Source of the DNA: an uncultured Lysobacterales bacterium
Lineage (GTDB): Bacteria; Pseudomonadota; Gammaproteobacteria; Xanthomonadales; SZUA-36
Length of the DNA: 37,387 nt
Reading direction: 5' to 3'
Assembly: GCA_937927755.1 (NCBI GenBank)
Contig: CALBDB010000072.1
Location: forward strand, 1-37,387
Shown: piece by piece, positions 6,062 to 33,768 of the stretch
Layout of the letters: every line of letters starts with the position of its first letter
Numbering within the stretch: the first letter of the stretch is position 1
Translations under genes and position numbers: made by a program
Notes under the pieces: model-generated
Seen by the model: only the letters and a program-made list of their open reading frames with translations
Database searches by the model: none
What the model was told of the DNA's origin: nothing

Positions 6062-6068
6062 GTTGGAA

Positions 6069-6118: not shown

Positions 6119-6144
6119 AAACTGATACGAAAAGGAATAGTACG

Positions 6145-7726: not shown

Positions 7727-7790
7727 GTAATCCCCAGTATTGGGATAAGGCAGGCTACATTTTCCTGTTTTGCTGTTAAAATCGGTTGTC

Positions 7791-7818: not shown

Positions 7819-7879
7819 TGATGCACAACAAAATCATACCGGTACACACAAACCCAACGCTGGCAGACGGGAGAAGAAA

Positions 7880-8437: not shown

Positions 8438-8477
8438 TACCTGCTCCTGATGGCGGCGCCACGCTGAAGGAACACCA

Positions 8478-10032: not shown

Positions 10033-10043
10033 GGAATTGCAGC

Positions 10044-11234: not shown

Positions 11235-11243
11235 AAATTAACA

Positions 11244-12620: not shown

Positions 12621-12661
12621 ACTTCCTGCCTCGAAAAAGAAACCCGTACGGATTTTAATTC

Positions 12662-15154: not shown

Positions 15155-15156
15155 AA

Positions 15157-15180
15157 ATCCGCCGGCCATGGCTGGCGGAT
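15157..15180. terminator. Strong inverted repeat after bamA
   Basis: Immediately after the bamA stop, ATCCGCC (15157-15163) and GGCGGAT (15174-15180) pair, and the intervening bases extend the stem by a G-T pair plus GCC/GGC. No T-run follows. It could be a Rho-associated or mRNA-stabilising hairpin, not an intrinsic terminator. Confidence 0.45.
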
Positions 15181-15206
15181 CTCCAGAACAACCAAACACT
15201 TAAAAC

Positions 15207-15235
15207 TTAATACATTTGTCCAAAAAGGGTACAAT
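15207..15235 (+). promoter_or_regulatory. Possible internal promoter before skp
   Basis: A -10 TACAAT (15230-15235) matches the consensus at 5 of 6 positions; a -35 TTAATA (15207-15212) lies 17 bases upstream. The predicted start point falls at about 15242, two bases before the skp ATG. A transcript from it would be nearly leaderless. I see no sigma-E type promoter here. Confidence 0.5.
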
Positions 15236-15243
15236 TTGGCGTT

Positions 15244-15771
15244 ATGAAGCGCTTAATACTCATTTTGCTGCTGTTTTTCATGGGTGTGGCCACTTCGGCG
15301 ACAGCCCAGCAGTTGCGCGTGGGTTACGTAGATATGAAGCAGGTGCTTGATAATGCCCCGCAGGTCCTCGCGGGCCGGGAGAAGCTGGATCTTGAATTCC
15401 GCCCCCGCAATGAAACCATTGAGTTTCAGGAGAGGCAGGCACAAGCCATGGAAGACCGCTTGCAAATGGGCGACCTGACCGAAGATGCAAGACTTCGCCT
15501 GGATCGCGAGTTGCGGGAAATGCAGCGCAACGTCAACCGGCAAAAAGAAGACCTGCGGGATGAGCTTTCCTTCCGCCGCACCGAAGAGATCCAGAAACTC
15601 GAAGACCAGATTAACCAGGCTGTCGATGAAATTGCACGCAATAACGGTTACGACCTGATTCTTTCCAGCCCCGTAGTGTACGCTGACCCATCGCTGGATA
15701 TTACACAGCTAATCCTGGATCAACTCAGACTGGAATACGAAGCGGATAAAAGGGATCGGGCACAACGCTGA
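15244..15771 (+). CDS. skp: Periplasmic chaperone Skp/OmpH family
   Basis: Trimeric periplasmic holdase that carries unfolded outer-membrane proteins to BAM. The 175 residues start with a signal peptide (MKRLILILLLFFMG... cut near TAQQ). The mature N-terminus LRVGYVDMKQVLDNAPQ is the OmpH family signature. Residues about 55-135 form the long charged coiled-coil tentacle, and NNGYDLILSSPVVYADP returns to the body domain. The start has no clear Shine-Dalgarno; only a GGG lies 15 bases upstream. It lies between bamA and lpxD as in other Gammaproteobacteria. Confidence 0.93.
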   Translation: MKRLILILLLFFMGVATSATAQQLRVGYVDMKQVLDNAPQVLAGREKLDLEFRPRNETIEFQERQAQAMEDRLQMGDLTEDARLRLDRELREMQRNVNRQKEDLRDELSFRRTEEIQKLEDQINQAVDEIARNNGYDLILSSPVVYADPSLDITQLILDQLRLEYEADKRDRAQR

Positions 15772-15814
15772 CGCGTATTGTCCGCACCAGGAATAGCGAT
15801 CCGGGGGATCCTAA

Positions 15815-16864
15815 ATGCAACATTCTATCCGTCGACTTAAACTATCGGCGCTGGCCGAACAGTTCGAACTCCGGTACACAGGGGATGGTGACACGCTGAT
15901 CGATGGTGTCGGGACCCTGGCTGACGCCACGGCTTCGCAAATGACTTTTTTGTCCAATCCGGCGTACCGCAATCAACTGGAACATACCCGCGCCGGCGCC
16001 GTTGTCGCTACAGCAGAAGACGCTGAGAATTGCCCGGTTAATTGCCTTGTCGCTGATGATCCCTATGTCAGCTATGCAAAAATTGCCGCCCTTTTTGATA
16101 CCCGGCGGCCGCGAAACCCCGGCATACACCCTTCAGCCAGCATCGACCCTACTGCAAGCCTGGGCAACGATGTCCAGGTTGATGCAAACGTGGTAATCGG
16201 GCCCGGCTGTGAGATTGCCGATGCCTGCACCATTGGCCCGGGTTGCGTTCTGATTGCAGATTGCAAGCTGGATACAGGCAGCCGGCTGGTGGCAAATGTG
16301 ACCGTTTGCGAAGGTGTAAGCATCGGCAAACGAACGATTATCCATCCGGGTGCGGTAATCGGTGCAGATGGCTTTGGCCTGGCTTTCGACCATGACCAAT
16401 GGGTCAAGGTACCGCAACTGGGCAGCGTTCAGATCGGCGATGACTGTGAAGTGGGTGCAAACACGACTATTGACCGCGGCGCTATCGGCAATACCATCCT
16501 TGAAAACGATGTAAGAATAGATAATCAGGTTCAGATTGCACACAATGTACAGATTGGCGCCCATACGGCCATGGCCGGCATGGTGGGGATAGCCGGCAGC
16601 ACGAAAATTGGAAAGTACTGCATGTTCGCCGGAAACTCCGGTGCTGTAGGGCACATCCGGATAGCCGATCGTACGACCGTGCAATTCAGGGGCGTGATAA
16701 GTAAATCAATTGAAGAAGCGGGAACTGTTTGGAGTGCTGCCCTGCCAGCGCTACCATTGAAGGAATGGCAACGCACTGCGGTCCACCTGCGCAAGCTGGA
16801 CAAACTGGCCAAACGAATCAAGAAACTTGAGAAACAATCCGGAAACCAAGCTGAAGATGACTGA
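15815..16864 (+). CDS. lpxD: UDP-3-O-(3-hydroxyacyl)glucosamine N-acyltransferase
   Basis: Third enzyme of lipid A synthesis; adds the N-linked hydroxyacyl chain to UDP-3-O-acyl-glucosamine using acyl-ACP. The 349 residues have the N-terminal uridine-binding domain (TLADATASQMTFLSNPAYR), then hexapeptide repeats forming a left-handed beta helix from about residue 100 to 300. The catalytic His is His243 in VQIAHNVQIG. The C-terminus is a basic helix (LRKLDKLAKRIKKLEKQ). It ends in an 8-base overlap with fabZ. Confidence 0.96.
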   Translation: MQHSIRRLKLSALAEQFELRYTGDGDTLIDGVGTLADATASQMTFLSNPAYRNQLEHTRAGAVVATAEDAENCPVNCLVADDPYVSYAKIAALFDTRRPRNPGIHPSASIDPTASLGNDVQVDANVVIGPGCEIADACTIGPGCVLIADCKLDTGSRLVANVTVCEGVSIGKRTIIHPGAVIGADGFGLAFDHDQWVKVPQLGSVQIGDDCEVGANTTIDRGAIGNTILENDVRIDNQVQIAHNVQIGAHTAMAGMVGIAGSTKIGKYCMFAGNSGAVGHIRIADRTTVQFRGVISKSIEEAGTVWSAALPALPLKEWQRTAVHLRKLDKLAKRIKKLEKQSGNQAEDD

Positions 16865-17321
16865 ACATATGATCAAGACACCCATCGAAATCAATGAAAT
16901 AAAGAAGATTCTGCCGCATCGCTACCCTTTTCTATTGATCGACCGGGTACTCTCTTACACGCTTGAACCGGAAAAAACTCTTACCGCGATCAAGAACGTG
17001 ACTGTCAACGAACCATTTTTCGAAGGTCACTTCCCGGAGGAACCCGTCATGCCCGGCGTATTGATTCTCGAATCAATGGCACAGGCTTGTGGCGTGCTGG
17101 CGCATGTTGCACTGGCAACGTCAAAGGATACCGGCAGTGTCTATTACCTGGTGAAAATTGACAATGCCAAATTCAATCGAAAAGTGGTTCCGGGCGATCA
17201 ACTGCTATTGGAAGTCAAACAAACACGTGTAATGCGCGGTATGGGCAAGTATGAAGCCCGTGTAAGCGTCAATGGACAGCGGACCGCCAGTTGCGACATA
17301 TTATGTTCTGAAGGTAAGTAA
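16857..17321 (+). CDS. fabZ: 3-hydroxyacyl-[acyl-carrier-protein] dehydratase FabZ
   Basis: Hot-dog-fold dehydratase of type II fatty-acid synthesis, removing water from 3-hydroxyacyl-ACP. It competes with LpxA for 3-hydroxyacyl-ACP and so balances phospholipid against lipid A. The protein has 154 residues from ATG 16857 (MTEHMIKTPIEINEIKKIL). The ATG at 16869 is a possible alternative, and an open frame to 16827 lies inside lpxD. Catalytic His is in LPHRYPFLLIDRV, and the Glu in VMPGVLILESMAQACG. Start overlaps lpxD by 8 bases. Confidence 0.95.
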   Translation: MTEHMIKTPIEINEIKKILPHRYPFLLIDRVLSYTLEPEKTLTAIKNVTVNEPFFEGHFPEEPVMPGVLILESMAQACGVLAHVALATSKDTGSVYYLVKIDNAKFNRKVVPGDQLLLEVKQTRVMRGMGKYEARVSVNGQRTASCDILCSEGK

Positions 17322-17358
17322 CGATTACATTCCCATAAGCTTGAACGAGTGCAAAACG

Positions 17359-18129
17359 ATGATCCATCCAACAGCCATCGTAGACCCCAAAGCTGAACTC
17401 GCGGATGACGTTGAGGTCGGCGCATTTACAATCATAGACTCCAAGGTGCGGATAGATTCCGGTACCAAGGTCGGGCCGCATGCCGTACTGACCGGCCGCA
17501 CTACGATCGGAAAAAACAACCATATATTTCAGTTCACATCCATCGGTGAACAACCGCAGGACAAGAAGTATGCGGGTGAAGATACCGAGTTGATCATCGG
17601 TGATAACAACACCATCCGCGAGTTGTGCACGTTTAGCCGCGGCTCCATGCAAGGCGGCGGTGTTACCCGGATCGGCAGCAACAACTGGATCATGGCCTGT
17701 GTTCATATTGCCCACGATTGTGTCCTGGGTGACAACATCATCATGGCGAATAACGCATCCCTGGCCGGCCATGTCACCATTGGTGACCATGCAATTTTGT
17801 CCGGCTACTCGCTGATCCATCAATTTTGCTCCGTTGGCGAAAACAGCTTTACTTCTTTCGCCAGCCACGTGAACCAGAGTATCCCGCCCTACGTCACGGT
17901 TTCCGGGGAAAAAGCAAGGGTAAAGGGCATCAACTCAGAGGGGCTGAGGCGACGGGGCTTTACATCAGAGCAAATCAACCAGGTGCGGCGAGCTTACAAG
18001 GCGATCTATCGCGAAAGCCTTACGCTGGAAGACGCCACTGCCCGGTTGGCGGAAATGGCAATCAATTCTCCCGAAATCCAGCCCATGGTGGATTTTCTGA
18101 AAACAGCTGAGCGCGGCATCATCCGGTAA
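17359..18129 (+). CDS. lpxA: UDP-N-acetylglucosamine O-acyltransferase
   Basis: First enzyme of lipid A synthesis, transferring a 3-hydroxyacyl chain from ACP to UDP-GlcNAc. From ATG 17359 (MIHPTAIVDPKAEL) the protein has 256 residues, close to E. coli LpxA. The longer open frame to 17272 lies inside fabZ and lacks homology to the family start. The first two thirds are hexapeptide repeats; the catalytic His is His119 in VHIAHDCVLGD. The C-terminal helices include GLRRRGFTSEQI. Its stop shares one base with the lpxB start (TAATG). Confidence 0.96.
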   Translation: MIHPTAIVDPKAELADDVEVGAFTIIDSKVRIDSGTKVGPHAVLTGRTTIGKNNHIFQFTSIGEQPQDKKYAGEDTELIIGDNNTIRELCTFSRGSMQGGGVTRIGSNNWIMACVHIAHDCVLGDNIIMANNASLAGHVTIGDHAILSGYSLIHQFCSVGENSFTSFASHVNQSIPPYVTVSGEKARVKGINSEGLRRRGFTSEQINQVRRAYKAIYRESLTLEDATARLAEMAINSPEIQPMVDFLKTAERGIIR

Positions 18130-19295
18130 TGATTATCACCTTGGTGGCGGGAGAAGCATCCGGCGATCAACTGGGTGCGGCGTTAATCAGGGCAATTCGC
18201 TCAAGAAACCCGGATATCCGTTTCGCCGGGATCGGCGGGGCGTTGATGAAAGCTGCCGGCATGGATATCTGGTGGGGCTCCGATCAATTGTCTGTGATGG
18301 GGCTTTTCGAGGTCATCAACCACCTGCCCCGCCTGGCAGCGCTGCGGCGCCAACTCATTGCGCGGCTGTTAGAGCAAAAGCCGGACGTATTCATCGGCAT
18401 CGACGCACCTGACTTTAACCTCGGCGTAGAGAAGAAACTTAAAGCAGCGGGAATCCCGGTCATCCACTACGTCAGCCCAACAGTCTGGGCATGGCGCGCC
18501 GGCAGGGTTAAAACCATCGCACGCTCAACCGACCGTGTTCTGTGTCTCTTCCCTTTCGAGCCAGGCTATTACAAACAGTTCATTCCTGCGAATTACACCG
18601 GTCACCCGATGGCCGATGACATACCGCTTCAGAACAATAAAGAGGCTGCGAGAGCTGCTCTTGAAATCGGCCACGAAGGTGTATGTATCGCGCTATTGCC
18701 GGGAAGTCGCCAATCCGAGGTTCAAAAACTCTCCGTTCCGATGCTTGACGCTGCTGCCGACCTTACCTGGCGTTTCCCCGGCATCCGCTTTCTGATGCCG
18801 GCGGCGACTGAACTTGCCCGGGATATTTTCACAAAGGAATTGAAAAATTACCCTGCCGTGAACTGCCAGGTATTTCCATCGCGCAGCAAGGATATAATAG
18901 CGGCCTCGGATGTCGTGATTGTTGCATCGGGCACGGCGACGCTCGAAGTCATGCTGATCAACCGGCCAATGGTGGTTTGCTATCGCCTCGCAGGCATGAC
19001 ATACAGTCTTGCAAAATGGTTCAAGCTGGTAAAAAGCCACTTTTTCTCCCTGCCCAATATCCTGGCTACCGAAGCACTGGTGCCGGAACTTCTGCAACAC
19101 GAAGTAAACGGCCAGCGGATTGCTGACGAGGTTGCGAGGTGGCTGGAACAACCCCGGCTGCGCAAGACCCTTGAGCACCGTTTTGACCAACTGCATAAAC
19201 AATTGAAGATCGATGCTGCGGCCACCGCGGCCCAAGCCGTGCTTCAGCATATCGCAGACCCCGCCAGAGAAGATGAAACCGGCTCCAATTCTTGA
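18129..19295 (+). CDS. lpxB: Lipid-A-disaccharide synthase
   Basis: Peripheral inner-membrane GT-B glycosyltransferase (family GT19) condensing UDP-2,3-diacylglucosamine with lipid X to the tetraacyl disaccharide. The protein has 388 residues. The N-terminal signature LVAGEASGDQLGAALI is followed by GIDAPDFNLGVEKKLK, HYVSPTVWAWRAGRVK, LLPGSRQSEV and VASGTATLEVMLINRPMVV. The ATG at 18129 overlaps the lpxA stop by one base. LpxH, which makes the substrate, is not in this window. The end overlaps rnhB by 23 bases. Confidence 0.96.
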   Translation: MIITLVAGEASGDQLGAALIRAIRSRNPDIRFAGIGGALMKAAGMDIWWGSDQLSVMGLFEVINHLPRLAALRRQLIARLLEQKPDVFIGIDAPDFNLGVEKKLKAAGIPVIHYVSPTVWAWRAGRVKTIARSTDRVLCLFPFEPGYYKQFIPANYTGHPMADDIPLQNNKEAARAALEIGHEGVCIALLPGSRQSEVQKLSVPMLDAAADLTWRFPGIRFLMPAATELARDIFTKELKNYPAVNCQVFPSRSKDIIAASDVVIVASGTATLEVMLINRPMVVCYRLAGMTYSLAKWFKLVKSHFFSLPNILATEALVPELLQHEVNGQRIADEVARWLEQPRLRKTLEHRFDQLHKQLKIDAAATAAQAVLQHIADPAREDETGSNS

Positions 19296-22019: not shown

Positions 22020-22346
22020 ATGAATAGCTGGTCACGTATCATGCTGGCCGCCTATGTCTGCACCTTGCTTTGGCAACCGGTCTGGCATGGGCTGCTACCG
22101 CCGCCCTATGGCGCGCGTAATGTCTGGCTTGCCGCCTTTGCCAGCCTGCCATTATTGATCCCCCTGCGTGGTCTGCTGCGCTCGAATTACCGCAGTATGA
22201 TCTGGGCCGGTTTATTGCTGCTGTTGTATTTTGCCATCGGCGTCATGGAGGCCTGGAGTAATCCATTACAAAGACTGCCCGCCCTGGTACAGGTCATTCT
22301 CCCGGTTTGCTACCTGCTGGCTTTCAAAGAACGTAACCGGTCTTAA
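22020..22346 (+). CDS. DUF2069 integral membrane protein
   Basis: A 108-residue membrane protein with four predicted helices (about 7-25, 33-50, 60-77, 85-101) and family features LLWQPVWHGLLPPP, RSNYRSMIWAGLLLL and AWSNPLQRLPALVQV. This fits DUF2069, a gammaproteobacterial family of unknown function. It starts 15 bases after the ArsC-like gene and is probably cotranscribed with it. Its stop codon overlaps that of the convergent 1015-residue gene by four bases. Confidence 0.85.
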   Translation: MNSWSRIMLAAYVCTLLWQPVWHGLLPPPYGARNVWLAAFASLPLLIPLRGLLRSNYRSMIWAGLLLLLYFAIGVMEAWSNPLQRLPALVQVILPVCYLLAFKERNRS

Positions 22347-25300
22347 CCGGGGCCCTGGAGGGGGAGGGATTCATCTACCGGTTCGGTAGCTTCCTTGATC
22401 TCCTGCAGCGGCTCGGGCCGGGGTATAAAGAAATGCCTGTAGATGATGTTGATACGTGTCATCGCGTGCATCAGGCTGGTGGGTATCGATCCCTGTTGAC
22501 GCATGGCTTCAGTTTGCTGTGACCAGGCCTGCCGGAGTTTAAGCAGGCGTTCAAAGGCAATCCCATTAACCGATGTCAGCGCGATGTCATCCTCGCGGAA
22601 ACGGCGCAAAATACGACCATCGAGAAGACCCGCGTCACCGGCGATGGCGGTGCGTATGGAATCGGAGTTCAAAAGCGATTCCGGATAAAACAGCATCATC
22701 TGCATACGGATCAATGCCTTGTTGATCGACACCTGTGACATTTCCGAAAACAAGGAAACATCATCACCCTCTGAATTGCGCGCATTTGGCAGTAACAGCC
22801 GTTGGTAAATTCCGGCCTGCTCCGCTTGGTAAAGGTTTTGAAGATGCTGACTCAAGCGGGTTGTGATGTCCTCAGCCGGCGGCAAATCCAATGGAGTTAC
22901 GCCGATTCCGGTAACAAACCAGTCACGCCACTCTGCACCCTGATCCCAATTGCTCTGTAGCAGCCGAGAGGGCAATTTCCTAGATGCGGCAAGATAGGTC
23001 AGACGATCAGGGACTATTCCGCCGCGGCTTTCACGCAGAGGCGTCACCACGCGGCTTCCGATCCATTCCACTGGACAACTGTCATCCAGAACTTCCCCGG
23101 ACGCCTGTGCAAACAGATAATGGTACTCATCCGGGCTGGTGAAGCGGAAACCAAAAATTTCACTGCTCTGGCCGTTTTCCACGTATTGTCCCACCAGGTC
23201 AAAACCCAGGCGGCCGAAATAATTGGCGACATTCTCATCGTCCGCCCTGACCAGTTCAGAACGGCGTTCAACCCATTCCATGTTCCTGTAACAAATCTCG
23301 ATCTGGCCCATGCCGGTCTGCTCTGCGACGAGGTATTCGTCGGGAAACAGGCCGATCAGCGCCCGCGTGGTACTGAGGCTGCCGGACATGTCACAAACCG
23401 CCCGGTTGTCACAAGGCTGAATGACAAGATCGTCAGGCCTGTAAGCCGTACTTTGCGTCGCATCCCTGTCAAGCAAGACATCGGACCCCGGGCGGAGTCT
23501 CTGCGTACGGAAATCAAGCTCGGCACTCTTTACACCTGAATCCAGTTCCCGCAAGGCAAGTTCATAATCCGTCATGCTGCGGCTGATCAGGTCATTGTTC
23601 CCGGTGCCGGCCGCGGCCAGGCATGCAGCCTGTTCAGACAACCCCAGGAACAACTGTTCACCCAAGCTTTGCATCTTTGCAATGCGAGCCTCGTTCTCCG
23701 GTGTGTAGAAGAATTCTGGAGAATGCCCGGCAAACCAGTTCACGGTATTGGCCAGGACAGCCCATTCCAGGGGATTAGGCAGTGCATTGGCAGGGGGCTG
23801 GCAAGTGCTGGCATAGCGCCGGTGTATATAGCCGATGCCGTAGTTTATTCTCTGCCAGGCGGCAACATTCAATTCACGCCGCAGGGTATCCGTAGTAAAC
23901 GGTCCATTGACATCGCCTGATAATTCGGCCAGGCGGGCATCCTGGTCGGCCAGTTTCACCATGGTTTCCATGCAGGCGTCAAATTGGCTGCGGGCCATGG
24001 CCGGGGCACCGTTCTCATCCCGGCTAGCGGCAATACTGACACATATATCAATTTCCTCGACAATCCTCGCTCTGACCGGCATATCGAAGTAATAGCCCAT
24101 ATCGGGGATTAATAACGCCATTTGTGCGACGGCATCGGCCAGGATTGCCCGTGACTCCTTAATCGGGAAATCAGCCACGGCCGCACCCCCGGCGTCCGCA
24201 TCCCCGCTTTCGGTACCGGCTGAATAGGCAATGTTTTGGAGTACCGTATAGGCGGCAGCCATTGCTGGATTCAAGCGCGAGTCCACCGCCGAAAAACCTG
24301 CAGCGTATCGCTCAGAAATGGCAGGTAACTCGGCCACCAACCAGTTAACCAGGAATGATGTTTCCGACTTATCCGCAGTGTCTTCGAGCAGCCTGGAGGT
24401 AATCGAAAGCAGGCCCTGGACAAACTCAAAATAACGGCCTTCATGCAGGCCATCAATTAGACTTGCCAGGTACAGGGAGTTTCCGGCCTGACCTTCCGCG
24501 CGTTTATTTTCAACCGGCACAGCTGCTGTCACATTCAACAACGTATATCGAATCTGCATTAACTCCCGGCCGTCAGGGGGGCTTACACCGACCACGCTCT
24601 CAACGAGTTTTGACATGACCTGCGGAATGTTTTCCAGGCCGGCTTGAAGGTCTGCCGGGATTTCTTCCGCTGACGGTAATCCACGACCGCTAAACCAGGA
24701 AACTTCAACCTCCTTCCATGCCGTATCCGGAGAGCCCGGGGGGCCAACCAATTCCAGGAACTGAGTCCACAGGTCTACGGCGCCGGGTTCAATTTCAAGC
24801 AGAAAAACCGGAAGATTTGCTGCCGCGAGACGTTGGCCGGATCGCTGAAAAACCTGGTAAACCAGACCACTGCCGGGTGTGCGGCCCGGAAACACCAGCG
24901 ACAAATCAGCAAGGTCGTGCTGCTGTAACTCCCCAACTACCAGCCAGGCTGCAGGATCGAGGACTGAACTGCGCGGTTCAACCCAGCCATAACGGTCCAC
25001 CAGCATTTCCAGCCAGGCGCGGTCTTCAAGAAAATTTTGCGCCAGCGCAGCGTGGTCCAACTCGGCCTTGCTGTTGGCACGGCTCAATACATTTGCAGCT
25101 GCTGCCAGGTCAAGTAAGGCCTGCTTGCGTAATTGTGGGGTTGCGAGCGCCAGCGCCATCTGCTGGCTGCCAGGCAGCGTTACGGTCACAACTTCCGGCA
25201 CTGCCGGTGCCTGGGCCGTTTTCTCCAACTCAGTTGCTGGGGGTTCAGCCGGCGCCTCCTCTACCTGGGCAGGCACAACGGCAGATAGCGACAACAACAA

Positions 25301-25390
25301 GACACACGACAATACCCCCTTCACGCCAGGTATTAGGCTGTGTTGAGGTTTCCCTGTTTCTGGATTACGCTGCCGGACTTTTAGAATCAT
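22343..25390 (-). CDS. Large exported protein of unknown function (1015 aa)
   Basis: I do not recognise this protein. It has 1015 residues and a long N-terminal region ending in a signal-like hydrophobic stretch (VLSCVLLLSLSAVVPAQ, residues about 26-42), followed by a Pro/Glu/Ala linker. The remainder is mostly helical and acidic, with no transmembrane segments and no obvious catalytic motif. Cysteine-bearing segments such as ACLAAAG, QPCDNRAVCDMSG, QIEICYRNMEWVERR and VLDDSCPVEWIG suggest disulfides and a periplasmic location. The region around residues 690-800 looks most globular and may be a compact domain. It appears to be a single-gene transcription unit, with start ATG 25390 and a weak GGA upstream. 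Composition matches neighbours, so no sign of recent transfer. Confidence 0.8.
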   Translation of the reverse strand: MILKVRQRNPETGKPQHSLIPGVKGVLSCVLLLSLSAVVPAQVEEAPAEPPATELEKTAQAPAVPEVVTVTLPGSQQMALALATPQLRKQALLDLAAAANVLSRANSKAELDHAALAQNFLEDRAWLEMLVDRYGWVEPRSSVLDPAAWLVVGELQQHDLADLSLVFPGRTPGSGLVYQVFQRSGQRLAAANLPVFLLEIEPGAVDLWTQFLELVGPPGSPDTAWKEVEVSWFSGRGLPSAEEIPADLQAGLENIPQVMSKLVESVVGVSPPDGRELMQIRYTLLNVTAAVPVENKRAEGQAGNSLYLASLIDGLHEGRYFEFVQGLLSITSRLLEDTADKSETSFLVNWLVAELPAISERYAAGFSAVDSRLNPAMAAAYTVLQNIAYSAGTESGDADAGGAAVADFPIKESRAILADAVAQMALLIPDMGYYFDMPVRARIVEEIDICVSIAASRDENGAPAMARSQFDACMETMVKLADQDARLAELSGDVNGPFTTDTLRRELNVAAWQRINYGIGYIHRRYASTCQPPANALPNPLEWAVLANTVNWFAGHSPEFFYTPENEARIAKMQSLGEQLFLGLSEQAACLAAAGTGNNDLISRSMTDYELALRELDSGVKSAELDFRTQRLRPGSDVLLDRDATQSTAYRPDDLVIQPCDNRAVCDMSGSLSTTRALIGLFPDEYLVAEQTGMGQIEICYRNMEWVERRSELVRADDENVANYFGRLGFDLVGQYVENGQSSEIFGFRFTSPDEYHYLFAQASGEVLDDSCPVEWIGSRVVTPLRESRGGIVPDRLTYLAASRKLPSRLLQSNWDQGAEWRDWFVTGIGVTPLDLPPAEDITTRLSQHLQNLYQAEQAGIYQRLLLPNARNSEGDDVSLFSEMSQVSINKALIRMQMMLFYPESLLNSDSIRTAIAGDAGLLDGRILRRFREDDIALTSVNGIAFERLLKLRQAWSQQTEAMRQQGSIPTSLMHAMTRINIIYRHFFIPRPEPLQEIKEATEPVDESLPLQGPG

Positions 25391-25488
25391 GTTTGTTTAT
25401 CCGTGACAATGGCCTGATATTGACACCTTAAGGCTATACTACCCGCTGCAACCCAACAGCGGCAATGAATTCAGTCGGACGATTAAAA

Positions 25489-25974
25489 ATGAAAAAATTA
25501 CTGATAATTACAACCGGCGGCACCATCGACAAAATTTATTTTGACGATCTGAGTGATTACCAGATCGGTGATCCACAGATCGGCCAGATACTCCACGATA
25601 TGCAGGTTGGGTTTACCTTTGAAGTCAATGCGCTAATGCGTAAAGACAGTTTGCACGTCACGGATGAGGACAGGCAGGTGATCCATGACGCAATCGCCGC
25701 CAGCGACGCCACACACGTACTGATCACCCATGGTACCGACTCCATGGTTAAAACCGCGTTGGTGCTGGACGATATTCCGGATAAGACCATGGTCCTGACC
25801 GGTGCCCTGAACCCCGCAAGGTTTCGTGATTCAGATGCAATATTTAACATCGGCTGCGCCGTAGGCGCCCTGCAGGCCTTGCCACACGGTGCCTGGATAG
25901 CCATGAATGGTTGTGTCTGGGACCCAAGAAATGTTCGCAAAAATCGCGATAAAAATCGTTTCGAAGCGAATTAA
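25489..25974 (+). CDS. Single-domain asparaginase-like protein
   Basis: The protein is about 161 residues and corresponds only to the N-terminal domain of L-asparaginases, which normally have about 330. It keeps the TTGGTIDK motif with the nucleophile Thr, the HGTDSMVKTA motif (Thr-Asp pair) and PDKTMVLTGALNP with the Lys of the second triad. It ends soon after, at DPRNVRKNRDKN, without the C-terminal domain. The ATG at 25489 (MKKLLIITTGG) is preferred to ATG 25465. No frameshifted remainder is visible: the minus-strand DUF445 gene follows. It could be a stand-alone amidohydrolase or binding protein; activity is unproven. Confidence 0.8.
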   Translation: MKKLLIITTGGTIDKIYFDDLSDYQIGDPQIGQILHDMQVGFTFEVNALMRKDSLHVTDEDRQVIHDAIAASDATHVLITHGTDSMVKTALVLDDIPDKTMVLTGALNPARFRDSDAIFNIGCAVGALQALPHGAWIAMNGCVWDPRNVRKNRDKNRFEAN

Positions 25975-27308: not shown

Positions 27309-28508
27309 TTAGGGCCGGATTGTCTGTAGGTACCAGGTCATGAATTTCCAGGTGTAGTCTTCCATATCAGAATATGGACCAGGCTTGTAGTAACGTGACC
27401 TGACACCTTCGGCATTGTACTCAATGATACGTTTATCGGCCACGGTGGTCACATCCCATAGCCATACCAGGCGGTCCTTGTCGTAGTCTTTTCCTTCCTC
27501 GGCGTCACCATTGACCAGCCAGGTGATATCGCATTCGCAGCGGCCCAATGAAACCGGCGTAAACCGGTAAATCACGACATAATCGCAATAGGCCAGGCCA
27601 AAGGTGACAGGCCCGACCTGGAAATCCGTGGTGCCGCCATCATAGCCCTTGATATCGCCCAGCAGCGGCGCCACCGCCTGGCCGTCTTCGCTGCCGGTTA
27701 GGTGACCCTTCCACATCGGGTAACGCTCAAAGGCAAAACCCATCCCGAAACCCGGCTCATCGAGGTATACACAGTTCATGGATTCCTCGCCAAGACCGCA
27801 GGCCGCGGCCCGTGACATGACCTCTTCCATCATTTCCGATGTTCTTGCCCCGGGTTTGGCCAATGCGTGACCACGGGTGTATTCGGGATGTGATGGCGCA
27901 CAATGGTAGCACTCTGTATAGTTTTCGACCGCCAGTTTCCAGTTGGCATCGATTGAATAAGTCTGCCGGTGGGCAACCTTGGCATCCACGAGGCGGTATG
28001 GTTTCAACTTATTCGTCAAACCTTCCCTGACAGCCTCAAAAGATGCAGGCTGTTCGGAAAAATTGATGAAAATCATTCCTTCCAATATGCCGGTATGAAG
28101 CTTCTTCAGGCTGACCCTGGATTTGTCGAAATCATCCGCCATGTATGCCGCAGCGCGTAAGCGACCGTCCAGCGCGTAGCTCCAGCCGTGGTAGCGGCAA
28201 ACGAGATTCCTGGAACAGCCCTTTTTCTCAAGACAGATTTTAGAACCCCGGTGCCGGCATACATTGATCAGGGCGCTGACCTCGTCGTCCGCGCTACGCA
28301 CCACGATGACCGACTCCCCTGCCATTTCAAACAGGAACCAGTCACCGGTGGCGGGAATCTCGCTTATATGACCCACATACAGCCAACTCTTGAGATACAC
28401 TTCCTCGATATCCCGCTGATAGATCTCATTGTCCGTATAGAACGCCTGCTTTAACGAGGTTCTGGCAGGCTGTGCATCAATCATTGCTTGTATTTCCTGT
28501 TTGTCCAT
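27309..28508 (-). CDS. Rieske non-heme iron oxygenase, alpha subunit (GbcA/CntA-like)
   Basis: Terminal oxygenase of a Rieske system. The [2Fe-2S] ligands are in CRHRG and CRYHGW (Cys84, His86, Cys104, His107, numbering from ATG 28508). The catalytic domain has NYTECYHCAPSHPEY with His202 and His207 as iron ligands, and a likely third ligand Asp358 in TTVADKRIIEYN. The bridging position has Glu199, as in CntA-type carnitine oxygenases, where classical aromatic dioxygenases have Asp. This suggests oxidation of a quaternary-amine or methylated compound, but the substrate is not proven. A reductase partner is absent from the window. It lies 20 bases after the TetR gene and likely shares its promoter. 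TTG 28511 is a neighbouring alternative start. Confidence 0.88.
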   Translation of the reverse strand: MDKQEIQAMIDAQPARTSLKQAFYTDNEIYQRDIEEVYLKSWLYVGHISEIPATGDWFLFEMAGESVIVVRSADDEVSALINVCRHRGSKICLEKKGCSRNLVCRYHGWSYALDGRLRAAAYMADDFDKSRVSLKKLHTGILEGMIFINFSEQPASFEAVREGLTNKLKPYRLVDAKVAHRQTYSIDANWKLAVENYTECYHCAPSHPEYTRGHALAKPGARTSEMMEEVMSRAAACGLGEESMNCVYLDEPGFGMGFAFERYPMWKGHLTGSEDGQAVAPLLGDIKGYDGGTTDFQVGPVTFGLAYCDYVVIYRFTPVSLGRCECDITWLVNGDAEEGKDYDKDRLVWLWDVTTVADKRIIEYNAEGVRSRYYKPGPYSDMEDYTWKFMTWYLQTIRP

Positions 28509-28528
28509 CAATGCCTGTCCGCCGTTGT

Positions 28529-29218
28529 TCAGTCAGAAAAATGGCGCGGGAATACCCCCCGCAAATATGCCATGCTTATTTCGTGCGCCTGCTCCAGGTT
28601 CATTTCAGAGGGGCTGAGCAATAAATCCAGCCACAGGCCTGCGTGCATCGCCACCAGGCCGGTTGCAATATGCTCCGAGTCCACAGCGTACCCCCCCTGC
28701 CTGGCGATCTCCTCACATAACCCGGTCAGCATTTGCTTGTACTCCCGGCCGAGTTCCGCATAGATCTTGCGATAGGTGAGCCGTGAACGACCTTCACCCC
28801 AAAAGGCAAACCAGACGGCAAGCTTGTTGCGCTGACATATTCGTTTATCAAAATCCACGCACACCAGAGCACGCAATTTCTCGGCTGCATTATCTCCGCT
28901 GTTCTGCAGGGCCTTGTGCCAGGCCACACGGTACTCATCCACGACAAACAGTAATGTTTCTTCCAGCAGGCGTTCCTTGCTTTGGAAGTGCAGGTTGATA
29001 ATACCCTGGCTGAGCCCTGCTTCATTGGCCACCGCAGCCAGTGTTGTAACCGACAGACCATGTTTTGCAATCGAACGAATTGTCGCCTTGATCAACTGTT
29101 CCTGGCGCTCCTCCTTGGGGGCTGTACGCCTCTGGCTGCGGGGCTTTGTGATGGGCTGGCTCAAACCGTATCCTCGTTCGGGTTCAACATATATTCGACT
29201 GCTTTCTCCAATCAGCAT
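28529..29218 (-). CDS. TetR-family transcriptional regulator, BetI-like
   Basis: Predicted repressor of about 229 residues. The helix-turn-helix lies in TLAAVANEAGLSQGIINLHFQ, followed by SKERLLEETLLFVVDEYR. The C-terminal ligand domain resembles BetI (the choline-sensing repressor), with KLAVWFAFWGEGRSRLTYRKIY. ATG 29218 is preferred: AAGGA lies just upstream, while the longer frame from 29257 would start inside the operator-like inverted repeat. About 25 residues before the HTH (SQPITKPRSQRR) are a basic tail. It is divergent from the flavoprotein genes and upstream of the Rieske gene, so it probably controls both arms. Confidence 0.85.
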   Translation of the reverse strand: MLIGESSRIYVEPERGYGLSQPITKPRSQRRTAPKEERQEQLIKATIRSIAKHGLSVTTLAAVANEAGLSQGIINLHFQSKERLLEETLLFVVDEYRVAWHKALQNSGDNAAEKLRALVCVDFDKRICQRNKLAVWFAFWGEGRSRLTYRKIYAELGREYKQMLTGLCEEIARQGGYAVDSEHIATGLVAMHAGLWLDLLLSPSEMNLEQAHEISMAYLRGVFPRHFSD

Positions 29219-29243
29219 AATTCCTTTTAACAGGCTTTTCAAT

Positions 29244-29263
29244 GAATGAATAGCCATTCATTC
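29244..29263. promoter_or_regulatory. Perfect inverted repeat, likely TetR operator
   Basis: GAATGAAT (29244-29251) and ATTCATTC (29256-29263) form perfect 8-base arms around the 4-base spacer AGCC, 20 bases in all. It lies in the short divergent gap between the TetR start (29218) and the first flavoprotein start (29284). The size and symmetry are typical of TetR dimer operators, and binding here would block both promoters. A weak plus-strand -35 (TTAACA, 29227-29232) precedes it. Confidence 0.75.
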
Positions 29264-29283
29264 GTATGGACAGGAATGGTAAG

Positions 29284-30978
29284 ATGTGCGACTCTATGCC
29301 AAGCTCGAAACAGCCGCAGAACCGTCTGGCTGGCAATTACACCCGGGAGCCCGAGAGCGTGAAAAAATACGATGCCATCGTCATCGGCGCAGGCCATAAC
29401 GGCCTGACCAATGCTGCATACCTCGCCAAGGCGGGACTTGATGTCCTGATGGTGGAGAAAAACTCTTATATTGGTGGCGCCACCGCCAGTCGTGAACTTC
29501 ACAAAAACTGGATATATTCCAACGCCTCTTACGTCAGCAGCCTGTTGCGGCCGGAAGTGTTCCGCACCCTGGAACTGTCCAGGTACGGTCTGCAGATCGT
29601 CCCCTACGCCGGCGGAAACGTAACCATGTCCGAGGACGGCAACTATATCGGTTCATATGTTAACCCGGATGTATCACGCCGGGAAATGGCCCGGATCAGC
29701 CCGCGTGATGCAAATGCCAAGGTCCGTTTTGATCGTGACCTGATGCGTCAGTGCCGCTTTATCAGGCAGTTCATGCTAAGCACCGCCCCGGATCCAACCT
29801 CTTTCAAGCCCCGTGACCTGATGGGCATGCTGCAAATGGGCAAAGCACTGCTGGATCTTGGTGAAGACGTTATCTATGACATGATTCGTCTTTATACCAT
29901 GAGTATTTCGGAGTACCTGGATGAGTATTTCGAACACCCGTTGATCAAGGCCGCCAAGGCAGGCAGCGGGATTATCGGTTCCGCCATGGGTGTCATGTCC
30001 CCGGGCACGGCTTACGTCCTGTTACACCATGCGATGGGTGACGTTGACGGCACCATGGGTGCCTGGGGGTTTGCACGCGGCGGCACGGGCGCCATCGCCC
30101 GCGCAATGAAAGACTCATTCGAGGACAACGGTGGTACGCTCCTGACAGGTTCCGGTGTCGAACAAATCCTGGTCAAAAACGGCAAGGTCGCAGGTGTTGC
30201 ACTGGAAAACGGTGATGAGTACCAGGCTGACATCGTAGTTTCCAACATGACACTGCCACGTACTTTCCTTGAGTGCATGGACCAGAAAGACCTTGATCCG
30301 GAATTTATCCGCAGGGTCCGAAACTTCAAGATTCGCGGTTCATCCGGCAAGGTCAACATGGCACTGGATGGCTTGCCCGAATTTACTGCTTTTGAAGGCA
30401 ACACCGAACTCATCACCGGCGATATGCACGTTATCGACTCCGTCGAGCGACTGGAAATTGCCTACGACGACTGGAAGAACGGAACGTGGTCCAAGGACCC
30501 CTATCTCGACATCCTCATACCATCACTGACAGACCCGACCATGGCGCCGCCCGGTAAACACTTCATGTCGGTATTCGTGCAATATGTGCCGCCCAAAGTA
30601 AATGGCAAGGACTGGACCGATGATCAGCGCGACCAGTTTGGCCAGACCGTCATGAACCAGATCGAAAAACATGCGCCGGGTTTCAAAGACCTGGTCCTGC
30701 ATGCGGAAATCCGTACTCCACGTGAACTCGAAAACGAAATCGGTCTGACCCAGGGCAATATCTTCCAGGGTGAACTGACTATGGACCAGTTGCTTTTCAA
30801 CCGGCCGATACCCGGTTATGCCCAGTATCGCGGACCCGCAAAGGGTCTGTATATGTGCGGTTCCTCGAACCACCCCGGCGGCGGCATAATGGCAGCCCCC
30901 GGCGCCAATGCGGCACGCGAAATCCTGAAGGATATCCGCAAACCCAATACCGTACCGGAGGGCTGGGCAGATGACTGA
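29284..30978 (+). CDS. FAD-dependent oxidoreductase, PYROXD2/phytoene-desaturase-like (paralog 1)
   Basis: Flavoprotein of about 564 residues. The FAD-binding Rossmann motif is VIGAGHNGLTNAAYLAKAG, followed by the ribose-binding Glu in VLMVEKNSYIGG. The C-terminal FAD motif is MCGSSNHPGGGIMAAPGANA. The insert between is the substrate domain of the phytoene-desaturase/PYROXD2 group, with LHHAMGDVDGTMGAWGFARGGTGAIARA. No membrane segments. ATG 29284 has AGGA 8 bases upstream; ATG 29266 and GTG 29359 (with GGAG upstream) are alternatives. The stop overlaps the next flavoprotein by 8 bases. The substrate is unknown; context suggests amine or methyl-compound catabolism, and carotenoid synthesis is unlikely as no crt genes are near. 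Confidence 0.85.
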   Translation: MCDSMPSSKQPQNRLAGNYTREPESVKKYDAIVIGAGHNGLTNAAYLAKAGLDVLMVEKNSYIGGATASRELHKNWIYSNASYVSSLLRPEVFRTLELSRYGLQIVPYAGGNVTMSEDGNYIGSYVNPDVSRREMARISPRDANAKVRFDRDLMRQCRFIRQFMLSTAPDPTSFKPRDLMGMLQMGKALLDLGEDVIYDMIRLYTMSISEYLDEYFEHPLIKAAKAGSGIIGSAMGVMSPGTAYVLLHHAMGDVDGTMGAWGFARGGTGAIARAMKDSFEDNGGTLLTGSGVEQILVKNGKVAGVALENGDEYQADIVVSNMTLPRTFLECMDQKDLDPEFIRRVRNFKIRGSSGKVNMALDGLPEFTAFEGNTELITGDMHVIDSVERLEIAYDDWKNGTWSKDPYLDILIPSLTDPTMAPPGKHFMSVFVQYVPPKVNGKDWTDDQRDQFGQTVMNQIEKHAPGFKDLVLHAEIRTPRELENEIGLTQGNIFQGELTMDQLLFNRPIPGYAQYRGPAKGLYMCGSSNHPGGGIMAAPGANAAREILKDIRKPNTVPEGWADD

Positions 30979-32539
30979 AATCAATAATCAAATCGTCATC
31001 ATCGGCGGCGGCCATAACGGTCTTGTCTGTGCCAGCTACCTTGCGAAGGCTGGCAAACAGGTCACTGTGCTGGAAGCGGCCGGCCAGGTGGGCGGTGCAG
31101 CCATCACACGGGAATTTGCACCCGGCTTCAAGGTATCAGCCGGCGCGCACCTGTTGTTCATGCTTGATAAAACCGTGTGCAAAGAACTGTCGCTGGAATC
31201 AGCGGGGCTGTCATTTTCACAACAGAACATGACGAGCACAGCGCTGGCCGAAGACGGCAATCATCTGATGATCGCGGGGGATTCGTTACAGGGCGCAAAC
31301 ATCAGCAGCGCAGACCAGGCAGCCATGAAGGAATACCGGCGCTTTATGAACCGCTTTGCAGGTATCATCAATCGCCTGAATAACCGTATTCCGCCCAGGG
31401 TTGGAACTAAAAATCGCAGCGACTGGATTGGCCTGGCAAAAACTGCACTGGATGTGCGTATGCTGGGTCGGGACGATATGCGTGAATTCCTGCGTATCGC
31501 CGGTATTAACATTTACGACATCCTGCAGGAAAACTTCGAAAATCCGTTGCTCAAGGGCGCGTTAAGCCTTGACGGTGTGCTGGGCACAAACCTGGGGCCC
31601 CGGTCCAACAACAGTGTCTTTTGTGCATTGCACCGCCTCAGCGGCCTGCAAGGCATGGCTGTACCCCGGGGCGGCATGGGCGCGGTCAGCAACACGCTGG
31701 CAATGGTGGCAAAACAACATGGCGCAACGATCAGGACCTCTGCCACGGTCTCGCGCATCCTGATGGATGGTGACCGTGTATCAGGTGTTGAGCTACAGGA
31801 CGGCGAGCAGATCACAGCCCGAACCGTCGTATCAAACGCTGACCCCAAGAAAACCTTCTTCGACCTGCTGGGTGCACGTAACCTTGAGGCCGGTTTTGCA
31901 CGCCGGATCCAGAATATCCGTATGCGCGGCAATGTGGCCAAATTGCACCTGGCCCTGGACGGCGTGCCTGACTTCAACGGTTTGAATCAGAACCAACTGG
32001 CAGACCGCTTGCTGATTGCACCGGACCTGGACTACGTGGAAAGGGCCTTTAACCACTCGAAGTATGGTGAATACTCGGTCAAGCCGGTGGCAGAGATCTC
32101 CATCCCAAGCCTGCATGACGACAGCCTGGCCCCTCCGGGCAAACACGTGCTCTCCGCTGTTGTGCAGTACGCGCCATATCAGCTGAAAGCGGGCTGGTCT
32201 GAAGAGAAAGCCGTTTTGACCGATAAGGTTATCGATTTACTCGCGGCTTACGCACCGGGAATCCGTTCCCAGCTTGTCCACAAGGAACTGTTGACCCCGG
32301 TGGATATCGAAAACGAATTCCGCATAAGCGGCGGCCACTGGCACCACGGTGAGCTGGCAATTGACCAGTTCCTGATGTTACGTCCAGTTCCTCATTCCGC
32401 GCAGTACGCCAGCCCGGTCAACGGCCTGTTCCTGTGTGGTGCGGGCAGCCACCCCGGTGGCGGTGTGATGGGTAGCGCCGGTCGCAATGCCGCACACGCC
32501 GTGTTAGGTGCAAAAGATATTGAGGGTGAAAACTCATGA
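30971..32539 (+). CDS. FAD-dependent oxidoreductase, PYROXD2/phytoene-desaturase-like (paralog 2)
   Basis: Second flavoprotein of 522 residues, homologous to its upstream neighbour. The N-terminal motif IIGGGHNGLVCASYLAKAG and TVLEAAGQVGGAAITREFAPG bind FAD. RLSGLQGMAVPRGGMGAVSNT matches the GG region of paralog 1. The C-terminal CGAGSHPGGGVMGSAGRN closes the FAD site. Divergence from paralog 1 is high, so this is an old duplication and the pair may form a heteromer or act on successive substrates. Its start lies inside the end of paralog 1 and its end overlaps the GcvT-like gene by 4 bases. Confidence 0.85.
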   Translation: MTEINNQIVIIGGGHNGLVCASYLAKAGKQVTVLEAAGQVGGAAITREFAPGFKVSAGAHLLFMLDKTVCKELSLESAGLSFSQQNMTSTALAEDGNHLMIAGDSLQGANISSADQAAMKEYRRFMNRFAGIINRLNNRIPPRVGTKNRSDWIGLAKTALDVRMLGRDDMREFLRIAGINIYDILQENFENPLLKGALSLDGVLGTNLGPRSNNSVFCALHRLSGLQGMAVPRGGMGAVSNTLAMVAKQHGATIRTSATVSRILMDGDRVSGVELQDGEQITARTVVSNADPKKTFFDLLGARNLEAGFARRIQNIRMRGNVAKLHLALDGVPDFNGLNQNQLADRLLIAPDLDYVERAFNHSKYGEYSVKPVAEISIPSLHDDSLAPPGKHVLSAVVQYAPYQLKAGWSEEKAVLTDKVIDLLAAYAPGIRSQLVHKELLTPVDIENEFRISGGHWHHGELAIDQFLMLRPVPHSAQYASPVNGLFLCGAGSHPGGGVMGSAGRNAAHAVLGAKDIEGENS

Positions 32540-33768
32540 GCCAGATAAATCAGGATGACAAAGTGAAACCGATCGATTTTTCCACCAAGGCGCACTACCT
32601 GACCAAGGCTTTTCGCAGCCCGTTTTACTCGCGCCAGGAACCTTTGAACCACTTGAAAGAATGGGGGCGCTGGGCAGACTACCTGTCGCCGCATGCCTAT
32701 ACCTGTTCGGGTATCGAGTATTTTGCCGCCCGCAATGCCTGCACGGTGTTTGACCTGACACCGATGACCAAGTACCACATCAGTGGGAAGGACGCCCTGC
32801 CTTTTCTGAACCGACTGGTCACGCGGGATGTCAGCAAGATAAAGCCGGGCCGTGTCGGTTACTGTTGCTGGTGCGACGACGCTGGCCAGGTGATCGACGA
32901 CGGCACTATATTTCACCTGTCTGAAAACACCTACAGACTGTGTTCACAGGAACGCCACATGGATTGGTTAATGACCAACACGCTGGGGTTCGACGTGCTG
33001 CTGTCGGAAGAGACCCACAATGTCGCAGCGCTTGCGCTGCAGGGCCCCACCAGTTGCGCAACACTCAAGAGAATGGGCCTTGATGGTATCGAAAACATGA
33101 AGTTGTTCGATATCAGGCACTTCAATTTTGAAGATACCCAGCTGATGGTATCCCGGACCGGTTTTACCGGCTACCTGGGCTATGAGCTTTGGATAGACCC
33201 GGAGCACGCCGAAGTTTTGTGGGACCGTTTGTTTGAAGCCGGCAACCTGCATGGCATAAAGCCGATGGGTGACGAGGCATTGCAAATGCTGCGGGTTGAA
33301 GCCGGTTTTATCCAGGCTGCTCACGATTTCATGCCCGCCAATGCCACCATTCGCACCGGGCACACCCGTTCACCGTTTGAGCTTGGGCTTGGCTGGCTGG
33401 TCGACTTCAAGAAACCGGTATTCAATGGCCGCAGGGCATTACTGGAAGAAAAAAAGCGTGGCCACCGTTACAACCTGGTCAAGCTGGATATTGACGGCAA
33501 CAAACCCGGTTGTGATTCATACGTATTTACAAAAAATAAAAAGCGCGTCGGCACGGTAACATCTGCAACATGGTCGCCTTCGGCCAAGGCGAGTGTTGCA
33601 TTGGCATCACTGGAAGCACCACATGGCAAACCCGGTGAAGAACTCCTGGTCGAGATTTACTACCAGAAAGAGTTGAAGTGGAGCCGGGTCATGGCCAAAG
33701 CCAGGGTTGTAAAAGAAGTGTTTTTCGATCCGCCGCGTAAACGCCAGACGCCACCGGCAGATTTCTGA
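32536..33768 (+). CDS. GcvT-family aminomethyltransferase-like protein (THF-dependent)
   Basis: A 410-residue protein of the GcvT/DmdA fold that in known members transfers a methyl or methylene group to tetrahydrofolate. It has the typical Asp pair in AGQVIDDGTIFHL (Asp121/122, like the catalytic Asp of glycine cleavage T-protein), LALQGPTS, FTGYLGYELWIDPEHAEVLW, GDEALQMLRVEAGF and a C-terminal beta domain with GTVTSATWSPSAKASVALASL. Unlike GcvT it lies apart from gcvH/gcvP, and with a Rieske oxygenase and two flavoproteins it resembles stand-alone demethylase modules. It overlaps the preceding gene by 4 bases (ATGA). The C1 donor is unknown. Confidence 0.85.
   Translation: MSQINQDDKVKPIDFSTKAHYLTKAFRSPFYSRQEPLNHLKEWGRWADYLSPHAYTCSGIEYFAARNACTVFDLTPMTKYHISGKDALPFLNRLVTRDVSKIKPGRVGYCCWCDDAGQVIDDGTIFHLSENTYRLCSQERHMDWLMTNTLGFDVLLSEETHNVAALALQGPTSCATLKRMGLDGIENMKLFDIRHFNFEDTQLMVSRTGFTGYLGYELWIDPEHAEVLWDRLFEAGNLHGIKPMGDEALQMLRVEAGFIQAAHDFMPANATIRTGHTRSPFELGLGWLVDFKKPVFNGRRALLEEKKRGHRYNLVKLDIDGNKPGCDSYVFTKNKKRVGTVTSATWSPSAKASVALASLEAPHGKPGEELLVEIYYQKELKWSRVMAKARVVKEVFFDPPRKRQTPPADF

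Follow-up and report, generated by a model that had tools for sequence, protein, structure and literature searches.

What five genes of an uncultured Lysobacterales bacterium do together is the question raised by positions 27309–33768 of the window, by which we mean the whole 37,387-nt stretch of DNA analysed here, equal to contig C72, positions 1–37387, of a 3.4-Mb genome (G000; 97% complete). The genes encode a Rieske oxygenase, a TetR-family repressor, two flavoproteins (flavoproteins 1 and 2) and a GcvT-like protein (Table 1). An initial annotation, made from the sequence alone, had grouped them around one operator and read them as a system that oxidizes an N-, O- or S-methylated compound and passes the one-carbon (C1) unit to folate. 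Our comparison with related loci revealed that the set recurs in many uncultured Proteobacteria, that the genes for both flavoproteins and for the GcvT-like protein (the triad) travel together and that a palindrome is shared between the divergent operons. We favour, with moderate confidence, the reading that the five genes constitute one regulon for oxidative N-demethylation with C1 transfer to folate, the substrate likely being an N-methylated polyamine, diamine or omega-amine.

An ORF check placed all five open reading frames (ORFs) where they had been described, and their positions and Pfam domains bear out the domains assigned to them. The nearest NCBIfam models are GbcA, BetI, CrtO and TMAO demethylase/GcvT, in each case with a score under the model's cut-off; for the flavoproteins, initially called PYROXD2-like, they are of the CrtO and CrtI types. 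The Rieske and TetR genes are transcribed opposite to the triad. Within the triad, the two flavoprotein frames overlap by 8 bases and the flavoprotein 2 and GcvT-like frames by 4 bases; such overlaps recur in relatives (40 of 43 called pairs for the first and 37 of 45 for the second). The initial annotation had described overlapping or near-abutting frames throughout; this holds for the triad, whereas the close spacing of the TetR and flavoprotein 1 genes results from calling each ORF from its first start. In relatives, flavoprotein 1 begins at the counterpart of GTG 29359 or close to it, and residues 1–29 of its long form have block predicted local distance difference test (pLDDT) values of 33–37; the protein is likely translated from GTG 29359, with a length of about 539 residues. 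Given the relatives' start and the low-pLDDT amino terminus, the divergent gap is probably larger than the called ORFs suggest, and the palindrome probably lies inside the enlarged gap. The true TetR start is probably internal as well, for example at the Met codon near 29218.

Table 1. Positions of the five genes and the shared palindrome in the window.
Feature	Positions	Strand	Basis
Rieske non-haem iron oxygenase	27309..28511	-	Pfam Rieske and Ring_hydroxyl_A; E200 bridge
TetR-family repressor	28529..29257	-	Pfam TetR_N and TetR_C_6, BetI-type C-terminal domain
Putative TetR operator TGAATGAATAGCCATTCA	29243..29260	.	One mismatch to TGAATGA-N4-TCATTCA
Flavoprotein 1, amine oxidase/CrtI superfamily	29266..30978	+	Amino_oxidase/NAD_binding_8
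Flavoprotein 2, amine oxidase/CrtI superfamily	30971..32539	+	Amino_oxidase/NAD_binding_8
Stand-alone GcvT-like folate-binding protein	32536..33768	+	GCV_T and GCV_T_C; folate-site Asp D122

Conservation of the gene set was evaluated on 80 loci, comprising 45 from a genome scan with the GcvT-like protein, 4 annotated plasmid regions, 30 further stretches and the window; 73 of these were non-redundant as judged by shared GcvT-like DNA, and genes in relatives were called by a purpose-written script rather than a standard gene finder. All 61 non-redundant loci that extend 3.5 kb or more upstream have the triad side by side (60 by panel search and L103 by gene calling), a count conditional on the GcvT-like gene because most loci were chosen by it. 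The 13 loci recovered via flavoprotein 1 instead (L107–L109 and L169–L178) all carry the triad as well. Searches with flavoprotein 1 gave orthologues (at least 53% identity) in 10 of the 397 other genomes sampled across the phylum and in 3 of 184 from the class; a further 43 of the 398 genomes of the phylum had nothing closer than matches of 35–41%. The arrangement is retained where the GcvT-like protein is only 44–47% identical, and at 41% in L178, so it goes beyond chance. Among the 52 loci that reach 8 kb or more upstream (wide loci), 31 have the TetR gene, 25 the Rieske gene and 18 all five genes together. The proposed five-gene unit, whose co-occurrence in relatives had been named as its check, survived these counts; overall, we regard the initial interpretation as partly supported. 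Within the window's family, 22 of 25 examined genomes contain a GcvT-like orthologue, and a Rieske orthologue (at least 57%) accompanies it in 19 of the 22 versus none of the 3 genomes without it (Fisher P=0.009, uncorrected for ancestry and with incomplete genomes included). A second, more distant triad, with a GcvT-like protein 46–50% identical and the order of the flavoprotein genes swapped, was observed in L046 and L102–L105; genomes G186, G188, G190 and G208 hold both versions.

Chance clustering was ruled out by this conservation together with control regions, 20 of them random and 15 around canonical gcvT genes. PotF, PotB, PotC, PuuA, CoA ligase, hydratase, Rieske, TetR and both flavoproteins matched in 0 of the 20 random and 0 of the 15 gcvT regions. 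The random regions gave panel matches to PotA (3), aldehyde dehydrogenase (3), acyl-CoA dehydrogenase (2), DAO (2), GcvT (2) and class III aminotransferase (1), and the gcvT regions matched, besides GcvT, aldehyde dehydrogenase (3) and aminotransferase (1). As they also match in control regions, these common genes are weak evidence when they occur alone.

The second line of evidence is the palindrome. The pattern TGAAT-N2-8-ATTCA was found in 30 of 33 regions between a divergent TetR gene and the next gene, against means of 0.1 in base shuffles, 0.17 in dinucleotide shuffles (maximum of 2 each) and 0.08 in random genome pieces. Its refined form, TGAATGA-N4-TCATTCA with at most one mismatch, occurs at 34 sites across 93 scanned loci, which include some overlapping stretches of the same genomes, and at 0 sites in the 607,799 bp of 35 control loci. 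All 34 sites lie just upstream of an aminotransferase or flavoprotein 1 gene, on the side facing the TetR gene (cut by the contig end in L010). The palindrome is present at the cluster locus in 9 of 10 genomes of the genus, and the tenth (G193; 82% complete) has no GcvT-like orthologue. The earlier claim of one operator that the genes face is thus strongly supported at the sequence level, and the TetR protein is predicted to bind there. This protein has a BetI-type C-terminal domain and scores below the cut-offs of the BetI models (TIGR03384, 112.7 bits against 201.3; NF001978, 114.3 against 118), outside the choline-responsive BetI repressors. The window's site is the only one with at most one mismatch in its genome, and a genome-wide regulon is therefore unsupported there. 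Further single-mismatch sites exist in relatives; one, G186:C27:32462, would fall just past the end of L095 that bears an aldehyde dehydrogenase gene.

Rieske oxygenases hold their cluster by two Cys and two His ligands and their iron by two His and one Asp, with a carboxylate bridge between the centres. All of these are found in the Rieske protein of the cluster: C85, H87, C105, H108, E200, H203, H208 and D359 are invariant in 31 of 31 aligned Rieske proteins (for these and the GcvT-like proteins, sequences shorter than 250 residues and weaker matches were excluded, leaving 31 and 71), and E200 confirms the Glu-bridged centre noted initially. The nearest NCBIfam model is GbcA (NF058607), on which the protein scores 308.6 bits, less than half of the cut-off of 670 and outside that family; the best of the 31 reached an e-value of 2.8e-94, compared with 4.7e-92 for the window's protein. 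The closest solved structures by alignment are 3n0q and 3vca/4qup, followed by carnitine monooxygenase; the record name of 3vca/4qup is demethylase, presumably stachydrine demethylase. The cluster protein is the only Ring_hydroxyl_A match in the window's genome. An unlinked gene on another contig (G000:C159, locus L151:1435-2436, minus strand) encodes a 333-aa ferredoxin-FAD-NAD reductase, nearest to BenC at 117 bits, below cut-off, which could be the electron donor for the Rieske enzyme. In L087 (992-1840, minus strand) a small protein with a weak methylenetetrahydrofolate reductase match (27 bits) adjoins the Rieske gene, and a 27% identical relative also stands beside a Rieske gene in L165; this is one more hint that C1 units are handled on folate. 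Within ~10 kb of the Rieske gene, L159, L162 and L167 hold an arginase/agmatinase-family gene and a further aminotransferase gene.

The GcvT-like protein matched Pfam GCV_T at 195 bits and GCV_T_C at 46 bits. In the GcvT superfamily a folate-site Asp has a catalytic role; its counterpart here, D122, is present in 71 of 71 aligned proteins and corresponds by alignment to D96 of 1woo. Both domains and this residue place the protein in the GcvT/aminomethyltransferase superfamily. Among solved structures it aligns best to the folate domain of trimethylamine N-oxide (TMAO) demethylase and to T-proteins. Its scores are below the cut-offs for TMAO demethylase (NF053776, 256 bits against 1100, covering only positions 388–760 of the 763-position model), glycine cleavage T-protein (TIGR00528, 161.9 bits against 235.85), DmdA (NF009133, 147 bits against 410) and SoxA (154 bits against 1164). 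The window's genome has three GCV_T matches, namely the cluster gene, a strong T-protein-like one (G000:C162) and a weak one at the cut-off. The proposal of folate as the C1 acceptor is consistent with the invariant Asp; the transfer itself is a prediction from sequence.

Flavoproteins 1 and 2 are paralogues (33% identical) that both match Pfam Amino_oxidase above its cut-off. Their nearest NCBIfam models are of the CrtO and CrtI types, yet neither scores as a CrtI or CrtO carotenoid desaturase: flavoprotein 1 reached 110.6 on crtI_fam (cut-off 238.1) and 277.3 on CrtO (cut-off 1000), and flavoprotein 2 reached 155.2 and 261.9, respectively. By structure comparison their fold is common to amine oxidases and desaturases. 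Flavoprotein 1 matched the SoxB model weakly, over the Rossmann part only (28 bits). We regard as very improbable the view that they desaturate carotenoids or isoprenoids, with the Rieske and GcvT-like genes as mere neighbours that share no function with them, as the constant adjacency and frequent frame overlaps of the triad, the one palindrome between both operons and the failure to recognize any carotenoid synthesis gene among the annotated recurring neighbours all speak against it. Distant relatives of flavoprotein 1 (35–41% identical) are encoded at L027:15746-17338, L042:10543-12135 and L043:8099-9697, those of L042 and L043 near aminotransferase genes and that of L042 also near a PuuA-like gene; they possibly belong to a wider amine-related family.

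From the genes, their conservation, the shared palindrome, the active-site residues and the context we infer the following course of reactions. The BetI-like TetR protein would bind the single palindrome between the two operons and probably be released by the substrate. The Rieske oxygenase would hydroxylate an N-methyl group of a quaternary ammonium, the methyl leaving as formaldehyde; flavoproteins 1 and 2 would oxidize the remaining tertiary and secondary N-methyl groups, or act as one complex; and the GcvT-like protein would capture the methylene on tetrahydrofolate (THF) as 5,10-methylene-THF. The flavin and folate parts, being separate proteins, would be a split-gene counterpart of the fused demethylases; dimethylglycine dehydrogenase, sarcosine oxidase and TMAO demethylase carry out the same chemistry with fused domains.

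The likely substrate was approached through the additional genes of relatives, annotated by Pfam and NCBIfam with named-function scores mostly below cut-off. In the fullest clusters (L108, L090 with L160, and L096 with L162), the genes leftward from the palindrome encode TetR, acyl-CoA dehydrogenase, PotF (two copies in L090), PotA, PotB, PotC and then Rieske (L160 and L162); no Rieske gene was found before the contig end of L108 (wider region L168). Rightward lie class III aminotransferase, flavoprotein 1, flavoprotein 2 and GcvT-like genes, followed by those for NDP-forming CoA ligase, aldehyde dehydrogenase, enoyl-CoA hydratase (undetected in L096) and a PuuA-like ligase. On plasmids of Parasedimentitalea, Shinella, Fuscovulum and Rhizobium, the triad is accompanied by TetR, aminotransferase, polyamine-type transporter and Rieske genes. 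Counts for the 52 wide loci were aminotransferase in 23, PotA, aldehyde dehydrogenase and acyl-CoA dehydrogenase in 14 each, CoA ligase in 12, PotF in 9, PotB and PuuA in 8 each, and PotC and hydratase in 6 each. It is this transporter and these enzymes, added in the fullest relatives, that make an N-methylated polyamine, diamine or omega-amine the most likely substrate. Of the three kinds of methyl compound originally considered, N-methyl is favoured by the PotF-type, aminotransferase and PuuA-like context, and O- and S-methyl are the less likely alternatives. The idea that the Rieske gene and the Pot transporter are mutually alternative modules was rejected, as the Rieske gene adjoins PotC in five of ten wider regions (L159–L162 and L166); in the other five it lies near acyl-CoA dehydrogenase with a gap (L163), beside flavoprotein 1 (L164), beside acyl-CoA dehydrogenase and the methylenetetrahydrofolate reductase-like gene (L165), away from any triad (L167) or, in L168, is undetected.

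The binding proteins provide a further view of the ligand. PotF of L108 aligns to Escherichia coli PotF over almost its full length, and the pocket residues of PotF, including D39, D247, D278 and an aromatic box, are named in PMC8666671. All three Asp residues are kept in 14 of 27 distinct PotF-like binding proteins, including those of the window's family, L027, L034 and L051, and the ligand of this group is probably a diamine-like cation, judging from the aligned residues. W37 and W244 are present in 34 of 34 rows (7 duplicates), with residue 276 being Trp in 33 and Phe in 1; such a Trp box would suit methylated ammonium groups. A bolder version of our reading, which we put forward only tentatively, is a pathway for N-methylated or quaternised polyamines, such as plant N-methylputrescine or the long-chain polyamines of diatom biosilica, which are methylated: PotFABC-type import would be followed by demethylation to methylene-THF, by the Rieske enzyme and the two CrtI-type flavoproteins, and breakdown of the chain by aminotransferase, CoA ligase and beta-oxidation-like enzymes. 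If true, bacteria with the short form would keep the demethylation step alone, harvesting C1 units, and the CrtI-like flavoproteins would represent amine demethylases of a new, folate-coupled class.

Several observations weigh against N-demethylation of such an amine. By both sequence models and fold, the flavoproteins resemble carotenoid desaturases more than amine oxidases, and no close characterised homologue of the triad enzymes was found among those searched. The Rieske gene was undetected in 27 of the 52 wide loci (in some it lies at a greater distance or on a separate contig), the window contains no reductase gene linked to the cluster, and the palindromic pattern is absent from 3 of the 33 divergent regions (L049, L051 and L109). 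The polyamine-type extras occur in relatives only and in a minority of the wide loci; of these proteins, the two scanned against the PotF model NF007962 (cut-off 636) reached 316.2 (L051) and 317.2 bits (L027), and the two scanned against gamma-glutamylputrescine synthetase NF045547 (cut-off 650) reached 197.4 (L013) and 152.4 (L042). The window's genome yielded no PotF match in a search run without a positive control, no aminotransferase orthologue (best match 32%) and no PuuA-like orthologue (a partial 36% match only). Finally, 13 of the 27 distinct binding proteins have G in place of D39, T or A in place of D247 and C in place of D278; the proteins of L049, L050, L052, L170, L171 and L173–L177 show this exchange and retain W37, W244 and W276.

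This last group probably binds a ligand that lacks a free primary amine and is not an ordinary polyamine, as far as the pocket sequence tells, and it bears on the strongest rival, an omega-amino-acid betaine (gamma-butyrobetaine, delta-valerobetaine or similar). Such a compound would be demethylated stepwise by the Rieske enzyme and the flavoproteins to the amino acid, whose breakdown would be completed in relatives by aminotransferase, aldehyde dehydrogenase, CoA ligase, acyl-CoA dehydrogenase and hydratase. The binding proteins of L049, L050 and L052 and ten others do keep the Trp box while losing the acidic residues that hold a primary amine; the Rieske protein is nearest to GbcA, with the 4qup demethylase and carnitine monooxygenase among its solved relatives; and crotonobetainyl-CoA dehydrogenase is among the nearest models of the acyl-CoA dehydrogenase, albeit far below cut-off (165 against 540). 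We nevertheless consider this unlikely, because the Asp-keeping pockets fit a diamine better than a zwitterion and the PuuA-like ligase would have no obvious role.

The window's genome and, among its nearest relatives, L004, L005, L007 and L083 have a short form consisting of the Rieske, TetR and triad genes. G189, of the same genus, has a long left side with Pot genes (L085 and L159). Given the missing PotF match and the missing aminotransferase and PuuA-like orthologues, the window's genome seems to hold a reduced cluster with the demethylation part only. For this short form a split-gene glycine betaine pathway could be envisaged, in which the Rieske enzyme yields dimethylglycine, the flavoproteins carry on to sarcosine and glycine, and the C1 units pass to the GcvT-like protein: five genes would be enough, the regulator has its BetI-type domain, and no fused dimethylglycine dehydrogenase or sarcosine oxidase is found among the genome's three GCV_T-domain matches. 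The long form fits poorly, however, as glycine betaine would hardly call for the aminotransferase, CoA ligase and PotF-type transporter that relatives encode around this palindrome, and the Rieske protein is so far below the GbcA cut-off, with the best of the 31 hardly better, that we hold this pathway to be quite unlikely.

Less probable still is a pathway that degrades a methylated ring compound, for example homarine, trigonelline or a proline betaine. It draws on the kinship of the Rieske protein to 3vca/4qup, presumably a stachydrine demethylase, and on a 678–679-aa flavoprotein of the old-yellow-enzyme type near the plasmid clusters L049 and L050 (typed by NCBIfam matches in L049 and by existing annotation in L050). 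Homarine breakdown, however, is reported to use the N-methylglutamate dehydrogenase Mgd (cited in PMC13390433), and no ring-opening gene was recognised among the annotated recurring neighbours.

Elsewhere in the window, a 1015-aa ORF at positions 22343-25390 (minus strand) matches nothing in Pfam at 1e-8, and similar ORFs sit near the cluster in L005, L006 and L007. A short ORF of 169 aa at 25465-25974 (plus strand) has an asparaginase N-terminal domain as its sole match, and 4685-19295 (plus strand) carries housekeeping genes for ribosomal protein S2, DXP reductoisomerase, M50 protease, an Omp85-family protein, LpxD and LpxB.

In sea and soil, methylated amines serve as important sources of nitrogen and carbon, and many of them have no known catabolic genes. 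A part in their demethylation would assign a function to two flavoprotein families whose nearest models carry carotenoid-enzyme names, and the cluster offers a candidate operator and a small gene set open to direct testing. In agreement with the initial annotation, no pathway with the five-gene set was found in the open-licence literature, as judged by titles and abstract openings. Comparison with known systems shows where the cluster departs from each. In glycine betaine catabolism a Rieske enzyme performs the first demethylation, flavin-linked enzymes the later ones, and the C1 unit becomes folate-bound. The cluster resembles this system of GbcAB, dimethylglycine dehydrogenase and sarcosine oxidase in its GbcA-nearest Rieske enzyme; it differs in the low GbcA score, the separate GcvT part, the neighbouring genes and the flavoproteins, which are of the CrtI/amine-oxidase type and not of the DAO type found in dimethylglycine dehydrogenase and sarcosine oxidase. 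TMAO demethylase and dimethylglycine oxidase share the GcvT-like folate domain, and TMAO demethylase is the best solved-structure match, whereas the cluster's folate protein stands alone, with no fused N-terminal domain, beside two flavoproteins and a Rieske enzyme. The dimethylsulfoniopropionate demethylase DmdA is likewise a stand-alone GcvT-like THF-dependent protein, but its chemistry is a methyl transfer that needs no flavoproteins; the cluster protein is flavoprotein-linked and scores well below the DmdA cut-off. MgdABCD and heterotetrameric sarcosine oxidase embody a comparable multi-gene combination of flavin and folate demethylation, from which the cluster is set apart by its low SoxA score and by flavoproteins nearest to CrtO/CrtI. 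With the Puu pathway and PotF uptake, relatives share a PotF-like protein, an aminotransferase, an aldehyde dehydrogenase whose best model is PuuC (L013) and an amine ligase whose best models include gamma-glutamylputrescine synthetase; in contrast, none of the scanned proteins reaches the Puu or PotF cut-off, a Rieske enzyme, two CrtI-type flavoproteins, a GcvT-like protein, a CoA ligase and an acyl-CoA dehydrogenase come in addition, and the polyamine genes are all missing from the window's own cluster. Demethylation by Rieske enzymes and folate-linked demethylation are already known; their combination with two CrtI-type flavoproteins and a polyamine-like context appears to be new.

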